DNA from: an uncultured Pelagibacteraceae bacterium
GTDB lineage: Bacteria > Pseudomonadota > Alphaproteobacteria > Pelagibacterales > AG-422-B15
Direction: 5' to 3'
DNA length: 49,610 bases
NCBI GenBank assembly: GCA_902521655.1
Contig: CABYSM010000007.1
Coordinates: 1 to 49,610, forward strand
Positions within the stretch are counted from its first letter, which is position 1; the number at the start of each line of letters is the position of its first letter. The translations under genes were made by a program, and so were the position numbers. This document shows, in pieces, positions 21,763 through 34,217 of the stretch. The notes under the pieces are model-generated. The model had not been told where the DNA came from. It made no database searches and saw only the letters and a list, made by a program, of their open reading frames with translations.

Positions 21763-22653
21763 TCAGATATATCCTTTTAAAACAGACTTTATGGTATCCC
21801 CAATTACTGATGGGTTTTTTGATATAGTAACACCGGATTCTTTTAAGAGTTCGACTTTTTCAACTGCACTTTCCCCATATGCCGAAACAATGGCACCTGC
21901 GTGACCCATCACTCTACCTTTTGGGGCAGTTAGTCCTGCAATATACGCGACTACTGGTTTTTTCATGTTTTCTTTTGCAAATTTGCCTGCATCCACTTCT
22001 TGAGGTCCACCAATTTCACCAATCATCAATATAATATCGGTATCAGGATCTTCTTCAAACCGAGCTAGTACATCCCTGAAAGAACTTCCATTAATCGGAT
22101 CTCCGCCAATGCCTACGCTAGTTGAAACACCAATATCTAGCTCTTTCATTTGTGATGCGGCTTCATAGCCTAGTGTTCCTGATCGGCCAACAATGCCAAC
22201 ATTTCCTTTTTTATAAATATGTCCTGGCATTATGCCCAGCATTGATTTGCCAGGGCTAATTATACCTGCGCAGTTAGGACCAATCATCGTCATTTTTTCA
22301 GATTTTGCATATCTTCGCATATACCTTTTCACTTTAATCATGTCGTGAGAAGGTATTCCGTCAGTTATCGCAACACACACTTTGATACCTGCATCAGCTG
22401 CTTCCATTGCAGAATCCGCAGCATAACTTGGTGGAACAAATAAGATACTTGCTTCAGCATCCGTTTCTTTTACTGCATCTTTAACGGTATTGAAAACGGG
22501 AAAGCCAAGATGTGTGGACCCCCCTTTGCCAGGAGTAACACCTCCAACAACGTTAGATCCGTAATCAATCATTTCTTGTGCATGAAAACTTCCTATTTTA
22601 CCAGTGAAGCCCTGGACAATTATTTTAGTATTTTCATCAATCAATATAGACAT
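21763..22653 (-). CDS. sucD: Succinyl-CoA ligase (ADP/GDP-forming) subunit alpha
   Basis: 296 residues, normal length. [18 protein letters not shown] is the CoA-binding start, [19 protein letters not shown] the ligase motif, and [11 protein letters not shown] holds the phosphorylated His. It makes succinate and nucleoside triphosphate from succinyl-CoA in the TCA cycle with SucC. The ATG overlaps the sucC stop by one base (TAATG). Confidence 0.98.
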
Positions 22654-23829
22654 TATTTTACTTCAACCTTTTTTAACGCCTCAACCGCCTTAGCAGCAGC
22701 TTCTTTAAGAGAATGAGCTTCAATGTAATTAATATTACTCTCTTTCAAAATCTTATTGCCCTTTTCAACATTTGTGCCAGCCAACCTAATTATAAGGGGC
22801 ATGTCTATTTTTATTGTTTGAAGTGCTTGAACTATTCCCTCAGCAACCCAATCACATCTGTTAATGCCAGCGAATATATTTACTAAAATAACTTTTACTT
22901 TTTCATCAGATGAAACAAGCTTGAAAGCTTTTACAATTTTTTCTGGCGTTGCTCCCCCCCCCAATATCAAGGAAGTTTGCAGGCTCTCCTCCAGCAGACT
23001 TAATCATATCCATTGACGCCATTGCCAATCCTGCGCCGTTAATAATATTTCCTATATTTCCATCAAGTCCTACGTAATTTAAACCTCTATCACTTGCATA
23101 TACCTCACTTGGGTTTTCTTGAGATTTATCTCTTAATTCAGAAACATCATTTCTTCTAAACAATGCATTATTATCAAAACTCATTTTGCAATCTAAAGCT
23201 AAGACATGTTTATCTTTTGTAATTACTAAAGGGTTAACTTCTACCATAGTTGCATCTAGTTCACTGAAAGCTCTATAACAACCCTCAATAACCTCAGCGG
23301 TTCTTGAGATAAGACCTGTTTCAATACCAAGGTTAAATGCGATCTCCCTTGCTTGAAATTCCTGAATCCCAACAGCAGCTTCTATTTTTGATCTGATTAT
23401 TGTTTCAGGTTTTTTATTTGATATTTCTTCAACACTCATTCCACCTTCAGTAGAAGCCACAACCATAATACATTCAGAGCCTCTATCAAAAACAAGACCT
23501 AAATAAAGTTCTCTTTCTATATCAGAGGCTTCCTCGATATAAACTCTATTGATAATTTTTCCTGATGGGCCTGTTTGATTGGTGACCAGTTTTTTTCCAA
23601 GTAGCTTATCTGCAGCACGTGCAACTTCTAAAGCATCGTTGCAAATGATTATCCCGCCAGCTTTACCTCTCGCACCAGAGTGAACTTGTGCTTTTACAAC
23701 CCAACGAGAACCGCCAATTTCTTTTGCCTTATATTCTGCATTTTCTGGGCTGTAAGCAATCCCTCCCCTTGGAATTCCAATTCCAAAGTCAGATAAAATT
23801 TTTTTTGCCTGGTACTCATGTATATCCAT
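22653..23829 (-). CDS. sucC: Succinyl-CoA ligase subunit beta, split by a +1 frameshift
   Basis: Two overlapping frames together make a full SucC. The ATP-grasp N-terminal part starts at the ATG 23829 ([12 protein letters not shown], with GAGGG six bases upstream) and runs in frame to FLDIGGG, then goes off into SNARKN. The correct continuation, [13 protein letters not shown] through [19 protein letters not shown], is in the next frame. The break is a run of nine G (plus-strand C at 22954-22962); eight would restore the frame. Because the rest is intact and sucD follows at once, a sequencing or assembly error, or transcriptional slippage, is more likely than a dead gene. Confidence 0.93.
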
Positions 23830-26544: not shown

Positions 26545-27255
26545 ATGAATAAAAAAAATTATATAAATCCTAGATCATATGTGCATGAGGCAACACTATT
26601 TATTAATCCGTCCAAGAAAGATCATAAGAATTTTGAAAGAAGATCAAAGAAACCAAGTTTTTTTTTAAGCTTTTTTTTCGTAGTATTATTTTTTGCGTCA
26701 GTTTTAAGCTATTCATTTCTGGCAAGTGCCAGCAATACTGAATGGGAAATTGATTATAACGGAGAGGAAGATTGGATAATGATAGATGCCTATGGCATCG
26801 TTTCTGCAAATATGTTTGCAATTTCAATGAATAAAGAAAAATGTAATGAATTAGACGTAGATTTTTACTTCAGTAGCTTTGGAACCAATAAAGCTGACAA
26901 TGGTTTTAAATTTATTAGTGAAATAGTAGAAAAACCTCATAATGGTAACGAATATAGGAATTATGAAAACGAACTATTTGTGAAATATTCTGAACAGCAT
27001 GGTGATCATATAGTATATTTGCTGGATGATGGATATTTGTATCAAACTGAGGAGTGGATTGAATCATTGAGTAGTTTCAGTCCATTTTCATATAAAATGA
27101 CTCTTAGAAAACACCATGATCCTGAATATGATATTGATACAACATATATATTATCAGACACAGATGAAGTTTGGGATATGACTGAATTAGGAAATGTTTT
27201 AAGTGAAGAATATCGCAAATGTCGCTTCAAAAATTATAATCAATTAGAACTTTAA
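26545..27255 (+). CDS. Unknown single-pass membrane or exported protein
   Basis: 236 residues from the ATG at 26545, preceded by AAAGGAGC at ideal distance. Residues ~1-37 are basic and polar, ~38-62 form one membrane helix (SFFFVVLFFASVLSYSFLA), and the remainder is acidic and aromatic, probably periplasmic, with two Cys (EKCNEL and YRKCRF) that could pair. A periplasmic beta-rich domain is likely from alternating residues (EWEIDYNGEEDWIMIDA). I do not recognise a family. It precedes another small membrane protein and the TerB-like operon on the same strand. Confidence 0.65.
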   Translation: MNKKNYINPRSYVHEATLFINPSKKDHKNFERRSKKPSFFLSFFFVVLFFASVLSYSFLASASNTEWEIDYNGEEDWIMIDAYGIVSANMFAISMNKEKCNELDVDFYFSSFGTNKADNGFKFISEIVEKPHNGNEYRNYENELFVKYSEQHGDHIVYLLDDGYLYQTEEWIESLSSFSPFSYKMTLRKHHDPEYDIDTTYILSDTDEVWDMTELGNVLSEEYRKCRFKNYNQLEL

Positions 27256-27324: not shown

Positions 27325-27630
27325 ATGAAACAATTTATTTTTAATCATCCGTATATAGCAGGAATATTTGCTCCGCCATTCTTATATTGCATAGGCTTAC
27401 TTTTTTCAATATCCATGATGGGTGTAACAAGTATTGACTTGTTATTTGTAGTTCCCATTATAACATTTCTTTTAATAACAGTATTCCATATTTATGTAGT
27501 CATCACAGTTGATAAGAGTAAAGTACTCATATTATTTTTTCTTTTTACTTATGTTTGCTTTATTTTGTTACTCTACTTTGTTGCATTCAAAGCGATCTTA
27601 ATGCCAGTAAATTTTGGTGCTGGAGATTAG
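27325..27630 (+). CDS. Small polytopic membrane protein, unknown
   Basis: 101 residues with three hydrophobic helices, about 10-30, 37-60 and 67-93 (PPFLYCIGLLFSISMMG, LLFVVPIITFLLITVFHIYV, LILFFLFTYVCFILLLYFVA). The N-terminus MKQFIFNHPYIAG is short. No charged or catalytic residues stand out inside the helices, and no family is recognised. It lies 69 bases after the preceding unknown gene and 174 before the TerB-like gene; the latter gap shows only AT-rich sequence. Confidence 0.55.
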   Translation: MKQFIFNHPYIAGIFAPPFLYCIGLLFSISMMGVTSIDLLFVVPIITFLLITVFHIYVVITVDKSKVLILFFLFTYVCFILLLYFVAFKAILMPVNFGAGD

Positions 27631-27804: not shown

Positions 27805-28287
27805 ATGACAGACATATGGGACAAATATAGGCATTCTTCTCCGCAAACTATCAACATGATAGGTATTATAATTTTGTCATCAAAGATGGCAATGGCAGAT
27901 GGAGATTTTAGTCCGATCGAAAAAGAAGAAATACTAAAAATTATTCCTCATAACCCTGAACAGAAATCATTATTGAGTAGGCTAATAAATGAAGCAGTTG
28001 AGGACCCGAATGATATTTATTATCATGCGCGTAGAGTAAAGAAATTGCTTGATGGAGAAAACTATGAATTTCTTGAATTTCTAATTGCAATTTTATATCG
28101 AGTAGCACACGCAGATCATATCTTTGATGAAAGAGAAGAAAAACAAATAAGGCGTATAGCAGAAATATTTGAAATTAAAGAAAGTTATTTCAAGCGTATT
28201 GTTGAGACTCTCACAATGATTCCTGGAAAAATTAAAAATATTTTTTTAAAAATTCAATTAATTATTTTGAGAAAAAATAATGCCTAA
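27805..28287 (+). CDS. TerB-like (tellurite-resistance/DjlA N-domain family) protein
   Basis: 160 residues from the ATG at 27805 (an in-frame GTG six codons earlier is possible). It has the two-half helical TerB pattern: a first half ILSSKMAMADGDFSPIEKEE and a second half YRVAHADHIFDEREEKQIRR followed by IAEIFEI. The acidic ADG and ADH turns match the metal-binding loops of the family. TerB domains act in stress and membrane-associated complexes, often with bivalent metal. It is soluble, with a basic C-terminal tail. Its stop overlaps the next gene by eight bases, making it the first gene of a four-gene operon ending in an ion channel. Confidence 0.75.
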   Translation: MTDIWDKYRHSSPQTINMIGIIILSSKMAMADGDFSPIEKEEILKIIPHNPEQKSLLSRLINEAVEDPNDIYYHARRVKKLLDGENYEFLEFLIAILYRVAHADHIFDEREEKQIRRIAEIFEIKESYFKRIVETLTMIPGKIKNIFLKIQLIILRKNNA

Positions 28288-30106
28288 TCTAGATAACATA
28301 CACGATAAATTTTTCCCTAAAGCAAAAACAGTCACAACTGGTAAAACTCTGATAAAGTTTGCGTGGGCAATTGAAATATTTGTTGCATCCACTGCTTTAG
28401 CAATCGCACTTTTAATGCTTCTCGCTCAAGGACAATCAGGCGCTGCAATAAGTACAGTACAAAATGCTTTTGGTGATTTTAAAGTTGACAACTTAATTTT
28501 ATCAATTGCTTTCCTCGTCGTTGCAATAATGGAGTTAACTAAAATACCATTGGCCACTGCTTATTATTATTCAGTGAGGCTTACTTGGAAAATAATATTT
28601 TTACTTGCACTTCTAGCAGTAAATTTCTCCACTTTTGAAACAATGGTTACTGCTTTTGAGCTTCGATATCACAGCATGTCAACAGTTGTAGATGATATTC
28701 GAAATGATATTGAAAAAGTTCAGATTAACTTAGAAACACTTGGTGAAAATGCAGATGATGCTGAAATAAAAAATAATATAAAAATCTTTCGTGAAGATAT
28801 AGCAAAAATGGATGAAAAGAAAAATGAGGTTCTTGATAATTTTAACAAGAGTCTTAAGGATATTGAGGACAGGAGAATTGCAGCTATTAAACTTGCGGGT
28901 GATAAATATAATCAAACAGTACAAGCCCTCACGGATAAAGCAGATAGGGGCGCACCTCAAATTGAACAAAATAACAGAAAGATTGATGACTTAAATAATA
29001 ATATTTCAGATTTAAAAAAAGAAAATGATCAAAAAGCTACCAGAATTGACCAAAAAAGAATTGATATACGGAATGTGCCGAATAATATTTTTAGTAATAA
29101 TGATGAATTGGAAAAGTCACGTATTCAAGATGAAATTGATGATTTGAAAGAAGAGATTAAAGACAATAAAAACCAAATTGCCTCGAATCAAGATCAAATT
29201 GACGAACTTTTTAACCAAAATCAGGGTCTTGTTGGGCAGAACTCTAATACAGCTCAGAAACAAATAGATAATGCAAAAAAACAATATGATGATGAAGTTA
29301 ATATTGCAAACGATACTGCACGAAATTCTATAAATCTCATTACACAGCAAAAAGACAATGAAATTGAGAGTATTGAGGCAGAAAAAAATAGCTTTAGAGA
29401 AAACACTCTTCAACCCGAACAAGATCGTTTAAATAAATTACAGAGTGATAAAGAGAATGTAGATGAGAGAAGGAAGGATTTATTAAATGAAAAAGCTTTG
29501 TTAGAGGATGAATTAAATAAAGCAGCAAAAAATAATCAAATCTATAGAATGGCGGAAAAAATCAATGTTGTAGCAGATTGGTTTACAGGAAATGAACGTG
29601 CAAAGGGTCAAATAATTACCCAAGGAGAGTTAGATAGAGCTTTCTGGATTTGGTTTGGTGGATTATCTATTGTCTTATCTATAATAGGAACACTTGTCGC
29701 ATTTGCAGGTCTTCATCTTCAAGATGAAAGAGCTCATCAAATGAGAAATAAGTCTAAGGGCCCAAACAGAGTTTTAAGAAGCTTAAAAGCAACTCCGATG
29801 TATTTTAACAAGTTTTTGAAAGCCGGTAGAAAGAGATTATTAAGTCCAGTAAAAGTTATAGAGAAGGTCGAAATTGAAGTCGAAAAAATAATTGAAAAGA
29901 TTGTAGAAAAACCAATTGAGGTTGAAAAGGTAATTGAAAAAATTGTGGAAAAACCCATTGAGCACGAAAAAATTGTTTTTCAAAAAGTAGAAGTGCCCAG
30001 AGAAATTATTAGAAAAGAAATTGTATACGTACCTCTGCCAACTGATGATCCAGAGCTCCTTAAAAAAGGGCCCTTCACTCATAAAACTGATAAAAAAGAA
30101 GATTAA
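28280..30106 (+). CDS. Large coiled-coil membrane protein with VEKP-repeat tail
   Basis: 608 residues. Three membrane helices lie at ~27-50, ~70-86 and ~100-117. A long charged coiled coil follows at ~130-440 (many DIEKVQ, KEEIKDNKNQI, RLNKLQSDKE-type heptads), then a fourth helix at ~455-480 (FWIWFGGLSIVLSIIGTLVA). The tail at ~527-595 repeats an EK(I/V)VEKPIE(V/H)EK unit. The even helix count puts both ends on one side, so the coil faces the same side as the N- or C-terminus depending on topology. No enzyme motif is seen. Neighbours suggest it is a scaffold for the TerB-like protein and the channel (inference). Resemblance to phage tape-measure proteins is only compositional. Confidence 0.7.
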   Translation: MPNLDNIHDKFFPKAKTVTTGKTLIKFAWAIEIFVASTALAIALLMLLAQGQSGAAISTVQNAFGDFKVDNLILSIAFLVVAIMELTKIPLATAYYYSVRLTWKIIFLLALLAVNFSTFETMVTAFELRYHSMSTVVDDIRNDIEKVQINLETLGENADDAEIKNNIKIFREDIAKMDEKKNEVLDNFNKSLKDIEDRRIAAIKLAGDKYNQTVQALTDKADRGAPQIEQNNRKIDDLNNNISDLKKENDQKATRIDQKRIDIRNVPNNIFSNNDELEKSRIQDEIDDLKEEIKDNKNQIASNQDQIDELFNQNQGLVGQNSNTAQKQIDNAKKQYDDEVNIANDTARNSINLITQQKDNEIESIEAEKNSFRENTLQPEQDRLNKLQSDKENVDERRKDLLNEKALLEDELNKAAKNNQIYRMAEKINVVADWFTGNERAKGQIITQGELDRAFWIWFGGLSIVLSIIGTLVAFAGLHLQDERAHQMRNKSKGPNRVLRSLKATPMYFNKFLKAGRKRLLSPVKVIEKVEIEVEKIIEKIVEKPIEVEKVIEKIVEKPIEHEKIVFQKVEVPREIIRKEIVYVPLPTDDPELLKKGPFTHKTDKKED

Positions 30107-30111
30107 ACATT

Positions 30112-30996
30112 ATGGGTGATGAGCAGCCAATTTACTCAATAAATGAATATGCACCGATTAATAAATACATTGATGAACAGTCAAAATTTAGACAAACAAG
30201 AACTTTCTGGGCATATGGTAAGATTTTTGCTCTTACATTACTTGCTGTGGGAGTATTTGCGATTCTTATTGCGATTGCATATTGGTGGTTTAATAAACCA
30301 CACCCAGAAATCGTTAAACATACTGTAGAAGTTCAACCAAGTTTTGATAATCAGTACTTCAACTCTGAAGGAAAGATGGTTTACGACAGTACAAATCAAA
30401 ATAATGGAGATGTTTTTTTTGATATAATTAAACAAAAAGAGGAAATAATCTCCCAAACGCAAAGCAAAACTGTTGAATTGGAAAGTAAAATTGAGCAATT
30501 AGAAAATGAATTAAAAAACCCTCAAATTAATCAAGAGCAAAAAGATGAATATGAGGAAATTTTAATTCAATATCAGATAGAAATGTCACAAATGGCAAAT
30601 GATATAGCAAAATATAAAGAACAACTTCAAGCTGCAGAAAAGGCTATAGCTGAATTAGAGAACCCAATCACATCACCACCAGAGCCAAAAGTTGATGATC
30701 AAGGAAATGCAATCACCACCTATCAAGAATATACTGTTTTTGAATATAATAACATAGGAGACAACTTTACGGTAACGACAGGTTTTGCATGGGATTCAAA
30801 ACTACGTATGGATGAGGGAAAAAGTTACAGCTACAAATGGTGTTACATTGATCAGTTAGATCCAGTAGCAAAATTTGGTTATGATGATGATCGAGATCAA
30901 AGTGAACAAATTAAACTTTTCGAGATATCACAATCAGAAATTATGGAGTACAAAAAATATTGTTCTTCAAACCCTTCTTCTCAAATTTCAAATTAG
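30112..30996 (+). CDS. Single-pass coiled-coil membrane protein, unknown
   Basis: 294 residues. A short N-terminal tail is followed by one membrane helix at ~37-60 (FALTLLAVGVFAILIAIAYW). A coiled coil at ~105-185 (TVELESKIEQLENELKN) and a proline-rich linker (ITSPPEPKVDDQG) lead to a compact domain at ~205-290 with two Cys (YKWCYID, KKYCSSN) and many aromatic residues. It is probably anchored in the inner membrane with the C-terminal domain in the periplasm. Five bases separate it from the gene before and three from the channel gene after, so the products likely work together. No family recognised. Confidence 0.65.
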   Translation: MGDEQPIYSINEYAPINKYIDEQSKFRQTRTFWAYGKIFALTLLAVGVFAILIAIAYWWFNKPHPEIVKHTVEVQPSFDNQYFNSEGKMVYDSTNQNNGDVFFDIIKQKEEIISQTQSKTVELESKIEQLENELKNPQINQEQKDEYEEILIQYQIEMSQMANDIAKYKEQLQAAEKAIAELENPITSPPEPKVDDQGNAITTYQEYTVFEYNNIGDNFTVTTGFAWDSKLRMDEGKSYSYKWCYIDQLDPVAKFGYDDDRDQSEQIKLFEISQSEIMEYKKYCSSNPSSQISN

Positions 30997-30999
30997 GCA

Positions 31000-32541
31000 A
31001 TGAGAATTAAATGTACATATTTATTATTGTTAATATGGATATTATTCCCCAACAGTGGATTTGCTACCGACGATACATTTTGTAGTACTTTAGAAAATGA
31101 AATAAGAAAAAATCAAATTGATTTAAGGCTAGATCTTCAACCCCAAACCTATACTTGGGGAGCGGATTATGGAATTGATTTAGATTGGGATTCCAATATG
31201 AGTTATATAAGAAATGAAGATGGGTCAATTAATGTTTTCAATGTTCGTAATAATAATTTTGACGAAGAAGTATTTCCATCATCCAAAACTATAGGTCCTA
31301 AAGACAAGATCATGTTTATAAACAAAGTTAGTGTATCCGAATTATCTGATAACGAAATTGATACTTATTTTTATCCGGATATTGACGAAAGCATTGAAAG
31401 TACTGCTGAATTGAATGAAAGCTTAACACTTGAGTTGGGCGTTAGAAGGCAATCATCTAATGAAATAAAAACAATCAAAGTTAACCCACTTTATAATATA
31501 GAGAATTGGATTTACCCTGAAGTAAATATTCATAATTTTAGATATATTGACTCAAAAAAAGGAATATATAATTTAAACCTGACTCTTTATTATTTTTGGG
31601 AAATACCTGAATTAATTCCTTTATACGAAAGACTACTAGGAAACTATAATATTATAGAAGATCAGTACGATATAGCTTATTGTCAAATTAAACCCGATAT
31701 TTTTGAGTCATTACAGATCTGGCATCCTCTTCTTGATTTTAAAAATATCATAGAAGAGTCAATCGATGACTCAAGGGAGGACTATATATTTGAGTATGTG
31801 CCCTCTACAAATGAAGAGGACGCATCTGCTTATATTTCTTATCAATGGGATGGTAACACGACTCTTAGTTCAGATTTTAATTTTCTAGCTTTTCCATTTG
31901 ATACTCAAATTTTATCACTTGACTTAATGAATGCAAGGCAAGCATCTCCTATAGGATACAAATGGTTAAAGTATTCATTCATTGAGAGTGAATTTGAAAA
32001 AAAACTAAAAATACCTGATTGGCAAGTGGTTTCAAAAGATATTGTGCCAAGAGTTGAAATGAGTGACTATCATAGAGAAAATAGACAAATTTATTCTTTA
32101 CAAATGAGGATTGAGAGAAACTATTCTTATTACATTTACAAAATAATAGTTCCAATAATGATAATATTAGTTGTCGCTTGGTCAGCTTTATGGGTTGAAC
32201 CAAAGCAACTAGAGTCAAGATTAACGATTACGATAATATGTTTACTCTCTTTAATTGCTTATAACTTTATTGTTGATAAAGATTTGCCAAAGTTAGAATA
32301 TCTAACGCTTCTAGATTACTGGATATTACTGTCTTATTTGTTTGCAGCAGTGCCTACAATTATTTCAGTAATTTCATTTAAAATGTTATTAAATACAAAT
32401 GAGAAAACTTTAGAAAGCTTTGATAAAAATGTAAGGTTTTATGGACCTATTTTATTCATAATTCTCGTAGTAAGTACTTTTTTAGCACTTACTTTCAATA
32501 ATGAAAATACTGCTTTATTTATTAGAAATACGATTTTTTAG
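31000..32541 (+). CDS. Pentameric ligand-gated ion channel (Cys-loop receptor family)
   Basis: 513 residues. Signal peptide ~1-22 (WILFPNSGFA). Residues ~45-168 form an extra domain that looks PDZ-like (IGPKDKIMFINKVSVSEL). The ligand-binding domain at ~183-370 has WHPLLDF and the hallmark FPFDTQ at 298-303 without the animal Cys pair, as in bacteria. Then M1 (~376-396, IYKIIVPIMIILVVAW), M2 (~405-428), M3 (~436-462) and M4 (~479-500). Aligning YNFIVDKDLPK of M2-M3 with GLIC puts Glu405 at -2', Thr409 at 2', Ile413 at 6' and Leu416 at 9'. Glu at -2' suggests cation selectivity. Last gene of a tight operon; ligand unknown. Confidence 0.9.
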   Translation: MRIKCTYLLLLIWILFPNSGFATDDTFCSTLENEIRKNQIDLRLDLQPQTYTWGADYGIDLDWDSNMSYIRNEDGSINVFNVRNNNFDEEVFPSSKTIGPKDKIMFINKVSVSELSDNEIDTYFYPDIDESIESTAELNESLTLELGVRRQSSNEIKTIKVNPLYNIENWIYPEVNIHNFRYIDSKKGIYNLNLTLYYFWEIPELIPLYERLLGNYNIIEDQYDIAYCQIKPDIFESLQIWHPLLDFKNIIEESIDDSREDYIFEYVPSTNEEDASAYISYQWDGNTTLSSDFNFLAFPFDTQILSLDLMNARQASPIGYKWLKYSFIESEFEKKLKIPDWQVVSKDIVPRVEMSDYHRENRQIYSLQMRIERNYSYYIYKIIVPIMIILVVAWSALWVEPKQLESRLTITIICLLSLIAYNFIVDKDLPKLEYLTLLDYWILLSYLFAAVPTIISVISFKMLLNTNEKTLESFDKNVRFYGPILFIILVVSTFLALTFNNENTALFIRNTIF

Positions 32542-32562: not shown

Positions 32563-33381
32563 TTATGTATTCAAAATGATTACAGCAAGTGTCAGCAAGA
32601 CCAATGTTATGGCAATTGTTGATAAAATATAACTTTTAGAGATAGTGCCATGTTTATTTTCTACCTCAAAATATTTTTTATCCTGCCTTAAGCGTTCTTT
32701 CCTGAAAATGTAAATGACCGCAAATATAAATACGATAAGCAACGGATATATTAATATCGCGTCTATATTTGGTGAAATTAAAATATAATTATAGGTTCCG
32801 TGCAATGAAACAGGGAAGAGTAGCGACAATACGACATAAACTAAATGATTTGATTTTCCAAATATTGCCCTGATTAAAAACAATCCCATGAATACCCCAG
32901 CTGTAGCATGTAGAGGCACAGCAGTGAATGATCTTAAAATTGCAATTGAAGTTGCTAATTCAAGATCATTTTCATAAATGGGGTAAAGCACATAGTCCCA
33001 ATTTTCATATGCTGCAAATCCAAGGGATACTGCAACACCATAAACAAGTGCATCCATTGGCTCATTAAATTCATTGGCTTTGATGCAAAATAAAAGAAGG
33101 ATAGTCCACTTCGCAGTTTCTTCTAGAAACGCAGCTCTTACAAAAGCTTCATAAAAGTAAGGTGCCTCACCAGACAAGTAGAGAGTTTCTTCAAACCCTT
33201 CAACAACAGGAATTAACAAACTGATTGGAAAAATAGTGGCAACTCCAAGAAGAAAAGTTATAGATACAATTCTTACTGGTTCAGGAAAGCGATCTCTTCG
33301 GTAAACATAAAGCATTATAAGCGCAACTGGTATCAATGCATAAATAGAATAGATGACAATATTTGATTGTGATCCAAACAT
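32563..33381 (-). CDS. PrsW-like intramembrane metalloprotease (M82)
   Basis: 272 residues with about eight membrane helices. Family residues are present: E87-E88-x-x-K91 (FLEETAKW), E126-N127 (GFAAYENWDY), H158 (AVPLHATAGV) and H194 (VSLHGTYNY). PrsW-type proteases cleave membrane-anchored regulators such as anti-sigma factors. It ends 21 bases from the convergent channel gene and starts two bases after the lipoprotein gene, so it is probably the last gene of a nuclease-lipoprotein-protease operon. Substrate unknown. Confidence 0.88.
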   Translation of the reverse strand: MFGSQSNIVIYSIYALIPVALIMLYVYRRDRFPEPVRIVSITFLLGVATIFPISLLIPVVEGFEETLYLSGEAPYFYEAFVRAAFLEETAKWTILLLFCIKANEFNEPMDALVYGVAVSLGFAAYENWDYVLYPIYENDLELATSIAILRSFTAVPLHATAGVFMGLFLIRAIFGKSNHLVYVVLSLLFPVSLHGTYNYILISPNIDAILIYPLLIVFIFAVIYIFRKERLRQDKKYFEVENKHGTISKSYILSTIAITLVLLTLAVIILNT

Positions 33382-33383
33382 AA

Positions 33384-33797
33384 CTAATTGCAGATAATCT
33401 GATACATTTGCATGTACTCATTCCAAAATTCATAACAGTAGGTACTTCCAGTGCTCGGGGTTCCTGTTGATTTTGCACCTCCTAGCATAGCCCACCCGAT
33501 ACCAATCAATTTCTTATCTTCAAAAATATAGGGAGTAACCTCGTCATCTGTCAGTTTATTATCGCTTATCCAATTAGATCGAATATATATTATCTCCCTT
33601 ACTTTGTTGTTATGCATATAGGACTCGGTTTTTTCTGGAGTAGGCAGTATTCTCATTGCCTGATACATGTCCATCCCCAGGCTCACATTTTGTTTTACAG
33701 CATTATAGTTATTAACTTGTTCCTGATAGGGTGAGACGCAAGATACAAGTAATAAAAATAGCATAATATTAGAAACTAAATGTAATTTTATTCTCAT
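33384..33797 (-). CDS. Small lipoprotein, BamE/SmpA- or DUF3192-like
   Basis: 137 residues. A signal peptide ends in a lipobox LLLVSC with Cys20 as the lipidated residue. The mature part has SLGMDMYQAMRILPTPE, which resembles the G-M-x-x-x-x-V/A helix turn of SmpA/BamE-fold lipoproteins, and a strand pair YIFEDKKLIGIGWAMLGG. The tail holds two Cys (TYCYEF, IICN). It probably resides in the outer membrane. It lies 15 bases after the nuclease gene. Function not assigned. Confidence 0.6.
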   Translation of the reverse strand: MRIKLHLVSNIMLFLLLVSCVSPYQEQVNNYNAVKQNVSLGMDMYQAMRILPTPEKTESYMHNNKVREIIYIRSNWISDNKLTDDEVTPYIFEDKKLIGIGWAMLGGAKSTGTPSTGSTYCYEFWNEYMQMYQIICN

Positions 33798-33812: not shown

Positions 33813-34217
33813 TTAGTTAGAGCACCAATCTTTTTTATTATTTCGTTTATATACTACTCCGAGATTGTTGTTTACTATCTTTTTTGATACATCCTCACCA
33901 TCAATAATTAAAAATGACAAGACTCTACCAAAATAATCTTCAACATAATCAGTCTTAAACTCAATGGTAGATGCATTTTCTATCAGACTATTTAAATAAT
34001 CTCTTGCTTCTATCCCAAGTCTTTTTTCAGCATCGCATTTAGGCTTAGAGATTTCTGGAGTATCCAATTCAAGTAATCTTATTTTCGTATTTTTACCATC
34101 TATAATTACATAACAAGTATCTCCATCATAACAATATCGATCATTTTGCTTTCGCAAAATAATTTCAGCTTCAACAACTGTAATCATGCTAAAAAAGAAG
34201 ATCAGTAAGTACCTCAT
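33813..34217 (-). CDS. Secreted thermonuclease-family (SNase-like) protein
   Basis: 134 residues. A signal peptide covers ~1-17 (LLIFFFSMITVVEA). Residues aligned with the staphylococcal nuclease active site are all there: D33 (YDGDTC), R47, D52, T53 and E55 (IRLLELDTPE), and R98 (DYFGRVLSF). It should be a Ca-dependent phosphodiesterase acting on DNA or RNA in the periplasm or outside. Three Cys (C29, C35, C61) and C132 could form disulfides. First gene of the three-gene minus-strand group. Confidence 0.87.
   Translation of the reverse strand: MRYLLIFFFSMITVVEAEIILRKQNDRYCYDGDTCYVIIDGKNTKIRLLELDTPEISKPKCDAEKRLGIEARDYLNSLIENASTIEFKTDYVEDYFGRVLSFLIIDGEDVSKKIVNNNLGVVYKRNNKKDWCSN

Follow-up and report, generated by a model that had tools for sequence, protein, structure and literature searches.

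A PDZ-fused pentameric ligand-gated ion channel encoded beside a conserved TerB and coiled-coil membrane protein module in a marine alphaproteobacterium

The window analysed here is a 49,610-nucleotide stretch of DNA from an uncultured Pelagibacteraceae bacterium (contig CABYSM010000007.1 of assembly GCA_902521655.1), and its subject is a group of four genes at positions 27805-32541 that encode a TerB-domain protein, two coiled-coil membrane proteins with four and one transmembrane (TM) helices, referred to as the 4-TM and 1-TM proteins, and a pentameric ligand-gated ion channel (pLGIC) with an N-terminal PDZ domain (Table 1). A previous reading of this DNA, made from the sequence only, had described four head-to-tail genes with overlaps or gaps of 3-8 bases, and the open reading frames (ORFs) bear this out, where all four lie on the forward strand with an 8-nucleotide overlap between terB and the 4-TM gene, a 5-nucleotide gap between the 4-TM and 1-TM genes and a 3-nucleotide gap before the channel gene. 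That reading did not mention a second operon on the reverse strand, encoding a secreted thermonuclease (SNase)-like protein, a DUF3192 protein and a PrsW-family protease, which converges on the channel operon and begins 22 bp past the channel gene.

Table 1. Features of the channel operon and its surroundings (window positions)
Feature	Position	Strand	Basis
236-amino-acid (aa) periplasmic protein of the c11 family, N-terminal TM	26545..27255	+	recurrence near module or PDZ-pLGICs
101-aa 3-TM ORF between c11 and terB, membership doubtful	27325..27630	+	sequence alone
TerB-domain protein, 160 aa, cytoplasmic, no TM	27805..28287	+	PF05099 4e-17
4-TM protein, 608 aa, periplasmic coiled coil, conserved cytoplasmic tail	28280..30106	+	homologs, topology, helix model
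1-TM protein, 294 aa, periplasmic coiled coil and C-terminal domain	30112..30996	+	alignment, N- and C-terminal family motifs
PDZ-fused pLGIC, 513 aa, signal peptide	31000..32541	+	profiles, PDB matches
N-terminal PDZ domain of channel, residues ~25-165	31072..31494	+	profile vs PDB, hidden Markov model (HMM), hhalign
Ligand-binding beta-sandwich domain of channel, boundaries approximate	31495..32124	+	homology to pLGICs
Four-TM channel domain	32125..32514	+	homology to pLGICs, TM prediction
PrsW-family intramembrane metalloprotease	32563..33381	-	PF13367 1.7e-33
DUF3192 lipoprotein-like protein, in PrsW operon	33384..33797	-	PF11399 2.4e-9
Secreted SNase-like protein, C-terminus shorter than in relatives	33813..34217	-	PF00565 5e-9

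The channel had been proposed to be a Cys-loop-type pLGIC, and this assignment holds, with matches to LGIC_1 (NF033918) at 1.2e-23 and TIGR00860 at 3e-18 and, in the PDB, to DeCLIC and GLIC chains at 1e-16 to 1e-15. The protein combines a ligand-binding domain homologous to those of pLGICs with a 4-TM channel domain, and among 14 members F298, P299 and D301 of the Pro-loop FPFD and the M1 proline P385 are invariant and F300 is nearly so, as is the M2 motif (invariant or nearly so among the members aligned). The Pfam model of the ligand-binding domain, PF02931, found no match even in controls, and that negative is therefore uninformative. The pore is probably cation-selective, a prediction based on E405, which lies at the inner end of M2 and which alignment by hand with GLIC places at the -2' Glu position. 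The channel resembles GLIC, ELIC and DeCLIC, central models for neurotransmitter receptors, in its signal peptide, beta-sandwich ligand-binding domain and four TM helices, and differs from them in that its gene shares an operon with those for TerB and the coiled-coil proteins. To our knowledge, the signals that act on bacterial pLGICs in the cell are largely unknown.

What the earlier reading had overlooked is that the N-terminal domain of the channel is a PDZ domain. When a profile of the aligned N-terminal domains of 19 channel relatives was compared with the PDB, the matches listed were all PDZ proteins, where an RseP homolog was best (6.7e-11), followed by Do/DegP-type proteases; PF00595 was matched by 11 of these 19 domains singly at E up to 0.5 (best 1.7e-6). 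An HMM built without the window clade finds the window domain at 1.6e-6, compared with 0.15 for the best of 1,500 shuffles, and hhalign gives 98% for the window domain. The Phi-G-Phi carboxylate-binding loop reads DYGI in the window, alongside the stretch K-D-K-I-M-F-I-N, and DFGF, DLGF, DIGI or similar in nearly all members. In a channel from outside the order (L126, genome G653) the N-terminus is similar and PDZ-like; the gene immediately upstream of this channel is CII-like, and two c11 genes follow it. The identity of the domain as PDZ and its recurrence are solid at the level of sequence comparison, which also places it on the periplasmic side. The N-terminal domains of prokaryotic pLGICs are little known, that of DeCLIC, a double jelly roll, being the only one partly characterised according to a 2025 paper (PMC12664993), and those described earlier are of the PBP-I, Cache and MCP-N types (PMC549065), in contrast to the PDZ domain of the window channel. 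The profile finds the PDZ domains of bacterial proteases best, and the nearest known counterparts are those of the envelope stress proteases RseP, DegS and DegP, which share the periplasmic location; the PDZ domain of the channel differs from them in being fused to an ion channel and not to a protease.

Upstream of the channel, the earlier description of a TerB-like protein and two coiled-coil membrane proteins, one of them spanning the membrane four times, agrees with profile, TM and helix predictions. The TerB protein matches PF05099 over nearly its whole length (63 bits, cut-off 24.4; 4e-17), and an ADG-x-F-S-x-x-E-x-x-E-I motif and a second D/E cluster are conserved in 12 homologs. It is like TerB of tellurite resistance and stress in this match and in its acidic motif, and differs in that no other ter gene occurs among the nearby window genes scanned and its partners belong to two families without Pfam names. 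Hydropathy gives four TM helices in the 608-aa protein and one in the 294-aa protein, and in the structure model of the former, confidence is limited to the coiled coil, a helical stretch at residues ~130-415 between TM3 and TM4. By the positive-inside distribution of charges, consistent for the 4-TM protein across nearly all homologs, both coiled coils are predicted to be periplasmic and the basic tail of the 4-TM protein cytoplasmic. Across 15 homologs its invariant residues include W29, E32, E85, T87, K88, T118, E120 and T121, and these are charged or polar positions within predicted TM helices. At its C-terminus the 1-TM protein has a periplasmic domain that carries a conserved cysteine pair, (W)CY...C. 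The 4-TM protein has no Pfam or PDB match, and neither it nor the 1-TM protein falls in a named Pfam or NCBIfam family; SMC, Rad50, NDC80, LmuB and ZorA were rejected as identities, the weak Pfam, NCBIfam and PADLOC matches to them reflecting generic coiled coil. The general plan, in which a 1-TM protein is paired with a multi-TM protein that bears a long coiled coil, is also that of ZorB and ZorA of the Zorya system, where ZorA is a MotA/ExbB-type membrane ring protein with a coiled-coil tail; however, the ZorA match is weak (0.008) and confined to a coiled coil that is predicted to be periplasmic in the window, the TM helix of the 1-TM protein has no acidic residue, and no match to ZorB was found and no ZorC, ZorD or ZorE was recognised.

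A profile built on residues 1-135 of the 4-TM protein found relatives in 14 of the 397 genomes that make up the order sample, in a few diverged cases elsewhere in the class and on one Microvirga plasmid; a fifteenth match in the order (3.8e-4) was excluded since it is interrupted by stops. At 11 complete loci from two families the terB, 4-TM and 1-TM genes keep this order and overlap or lie apart by a few bases, while two of the remaining loci are cut by contig ends and one lacks terB. TerB-4TM-1TM is thus, judged by sequence, a conserved and tightly spaced module whose TerB protein is cytoplasmic. Viral contigs yielded no relative of either the 4-TM protein or the channel, phage records none of the 4-TM protein, and plasmids the one Microvirga relative of the 4-TM protein and none of the channel. 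On that plasmid (L064; pMVF16-5 of Microvirga sp. VF16) the diverged 4-TM coiled-coil gene is followed by a 1-TM protein in which the WCY...C domain precedes a PAN domain, and no gene annotated as TerB lies within the surrounding 20 kb.

The channel profile has matches in 46 of the 397 genomes, where that in G321 spans the N-terminal PDZ-like part only and may therefore be another PDZ protein. Two kinds of channel are seen in the order, a short one (~415 aa) that mostly stands alone and a longer one with an N-terminal domain that is mostly found in clusters. The earlier reading had tied the channel to the TerB and coiled-coil genes, and this linkage does recur beyond the window genome, contrary to the adjacency in one genome only that would have refuted that reading. 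The contiguous terB-4TM-1TM-pLGIC operon is present in the window and in a sister genome (L019); in another genus (L020, genome G075) the channel gene is divergent from terB at a distance of 252 bp; at L053 (G228) it lies ~5 kb from the module; and in another family of the class (L062, G635) a channel gene, whose N-terminus is unseen because of truncation by the contig end, is separated by 42 bp from a TerB-like gene (PF05099 at 9.6e-5, just below cut-off) that is convergent on 1-TM and 4-TM genes. These channels (window/L019/L020, L053 and L062) fall into at least three lineages of a TM-domain tree with weak deep support. A pLGIC is present in 6 of 14 module genomes as opposed to 40 of 383 genomes that lack the module (Fisher p=0.0026; 0.0098 when the sister genome is left out), in counts that ignore relatedness; accessory genes, moreover, gather in hotspots. 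The channel at L055, ~6 kb from the module, was given little weight, being of the short, usually standalone PDZ-less type (as at L031, L032 and L114-L117). The c11 gene, which the earlier reading had also passed over and which has no Pfam family, has relatives at loci with a channel only (L021, L126), with the module only (L051, L052, L060) and, like the window, with both (L020, L055). The anatomy of the locus and the recurrence of channel with module are solid as sequence results; what does not stand is the channel as a fixed member, since the module often occurs in genomes without a pLGIC, and the channel is thus a recurrent partner and not a constituent.

The earlier statement that bacterial channels are usually found alone does not describe this order, where most channels of the PDZ type cluster with genes for PrsW (in the same cluster at 19 of 28 loci), often for a CII-like regulator, and sometimes for an HtrA-like protease and a secreted caspase. 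Recurring arrangements are CII-like regulator-PrsW-pLGIC and caspase-HtrA-CII-like-pLGIC, and clusters with HtrA, caspase or CII-like genes are seen at L029, L030, L053, L098, L110, L111 and L112. The caspase-like proteins are secreted and of the C14 type (none is in the stretch seen of L111), the HtrA-like protease is likewise secreted, and the CII-like family has a sub-threshold match to Phage_CP76. The window PrsW (PF13367, 116 bits, cut-off 23.5; 1.7e-33) is the sole PrsW above cut-off in this ~76% complete assembly.

Several further observations concern these clusters. Arrays of genes for a secreted protein family of 190-200 aa often flank those with HtrA and caspase, and at L053 seven copies lie in tandem. 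A second 4-TM protein with charged helical flanks (c39; L029:3377-4876, L030, L098, L111), apparently unrelated to that of the module, lies near PrsW in a PDZ-pLGIC cluster together with a secreted protein, c38, and the pair may be analogous to the TerB module. At six loci (L025, L101, L102, L103, L106, L108) a PDZ-pLGIC and a short PDZ-less pLGIC share one cluster, where a Tat-type amine-oxidase-like gene of the flavin adenine dinucleotide (FAD)-dependent type adjoins the short one; heteropentamers of the two channels are possible. A small TM domain of the c4 family recurs beside PDZ-pLGICs, and at L028:6629-8164 it is fused to a MORN-like repeat protein ~1 kb from a short pLGIC gene. Within the window, the 101-aa ORF upstream of terB has no Pfam match and no relative among the neighbours compared, scans for promoters and terminators gave site numbers no higher than in shuffles, and two overlapping ORFs at 22653-23829 make up sucC (succinyl-CoA ligase beta), a split that reflects either a frameshift or an assembly error, the sister contig L019 having a single 391-aa ORF.

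The reading we prefer, at a probability of about 0.4, is that the two convergent operons, (c11)-terB-4TM-1TM-PDZ/pLGIC and SNase-DUF3192-PrsW, form an envelope-sensing cluster at the inner membrane. PDZ domains of DegS and RseP bind exposed C-termini, and the PDZ domain of the channel suggests peptide C-termini as the class of ligand, while the linked proteases suggest their source. The ligand, the formation of a complex and the output are what we infer for the cluster, as follows. Five PDZ domains atop the pentamer would bind C-termini exposed on peptides or on envelope proteins that are misfolded or cleaved, and this binding would favour opening of a cation pore. The coiled coils of the 4-TM and 1-TM proteins would form a stalk in the periplasm, sensing or tethering the same stress and relaying a signal through the membrane to TerB, and PrsW, or elsewhere HtrA or caspase, may generate or remove the peptide signal or process partner proteins. 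The output would be local depolarisation or cation entry together with a TerB-mediated cytoplasmic response.

Several points weigh against this reading. Eight of the 14 module genomes of the order, ones 97-98% complete among them, have no detectable pLGIC, and with G545 there are nine, some of them 97-99% complete, so the channel cannot be essential to the module; the Fisher counts, moreover, carry the limits given with them. Neither an anti-sigma factor nor any other substrate of PrsW was identified. The window PDZ domain has no Pfam PDZ match on its own, it is divergent, with KDKI in place of GDxI, and may have lost peptide binding, and the structure model of the channel, built from two near-identical sequences, reached a predicted local distance difference test (pLDDT) score of 33.

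An anti-phage or conflict system, in which the module detects envelope damage at phage entry, the secreted nuclease attacks periplasmic DNA, the channel depolarises the cell and PrsW, HtrA or caspase serves as trigger, is an unlikely alternative. There is a long-standing link between Ter genes and the inhibition of phages, the distribution of module and channel (14 and 46 of 397 genomes) is patchy, at 8 of 14 loci the TerB module directly adjoins a gene for a secreted SNase-like nuclease, and the caspase and HtrA-like neighbours resemble PADLOC models. However, for the window proteins PADLOC yields only coiled-coil or generic matches and no specific system model, defence genes, whether of restriction, CRISPR or another kind, were not recognised in the neighbourhoods, where no systematic scan for them was made, and the caspase, HtrA and SNase proteins bear signal peptides, unlike most abortive-infection effectors.

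We hold it to be similarly unlikely that two independent envelope modules, TerB-4TM-1TM and PrsW/PDZ-pLGIC, have repeatedly landed in the same flexible regions with no joint function. Each is found without the other, and insertion sites such as those next to tuf/rlmB or gatB are reused by related genomes; this explanation is at odds with the 3-nucleotide spacing in the window operon, the 252-bp divergent pair in G075 and the adjacency in another family (G635), with a chance of ~1% per genome of a pLGIC falling within 5 kb of the module, and with c11, which bridges both module types. The 2005 proposal of bacterial pLGICs as small-molecule-gated chemoreceptors (PMC549065), under which the PDZ domain would merely anchor the channel to partners, is improbable here, since for all that the canonical ligand-binding domain is kept, no transporter, periplasmic binding protein or chemotaxis gene recurs with the channel, whose protease partners suggest that the signals are proteins or peptides.

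No description of a PDZ-pLGIC or of the TerB-4TM-1TM module, and nothing relevant on a pLGIC combined with PDZ, PrsW or TerB, was found in the open-access literature, subscription papers lying outside the search; as far as the open literature goes, the novelty is a PDZ-pLGIC joined to a hitherto undescribed conserved module. That the envelope-sensing cluster amounts to a peptide-gated Cys-loop-type channel that responds to free periplasmic C-termini left by proteolysis or misfolding and so links envelope proteostasis to ion flux, with TerB-4TM-1TM a new transmembrane complex that reads or sets the signal, is a rather doubtful proposition as a whole. The module is in any case a conserved system, present in a single lineage of marine bacteria with small genomes and in scattered relatives, and charged residues within the membrane are invariant in it; if the peptide reading is true, envelope peptides could be the signal for such bacterial channels.

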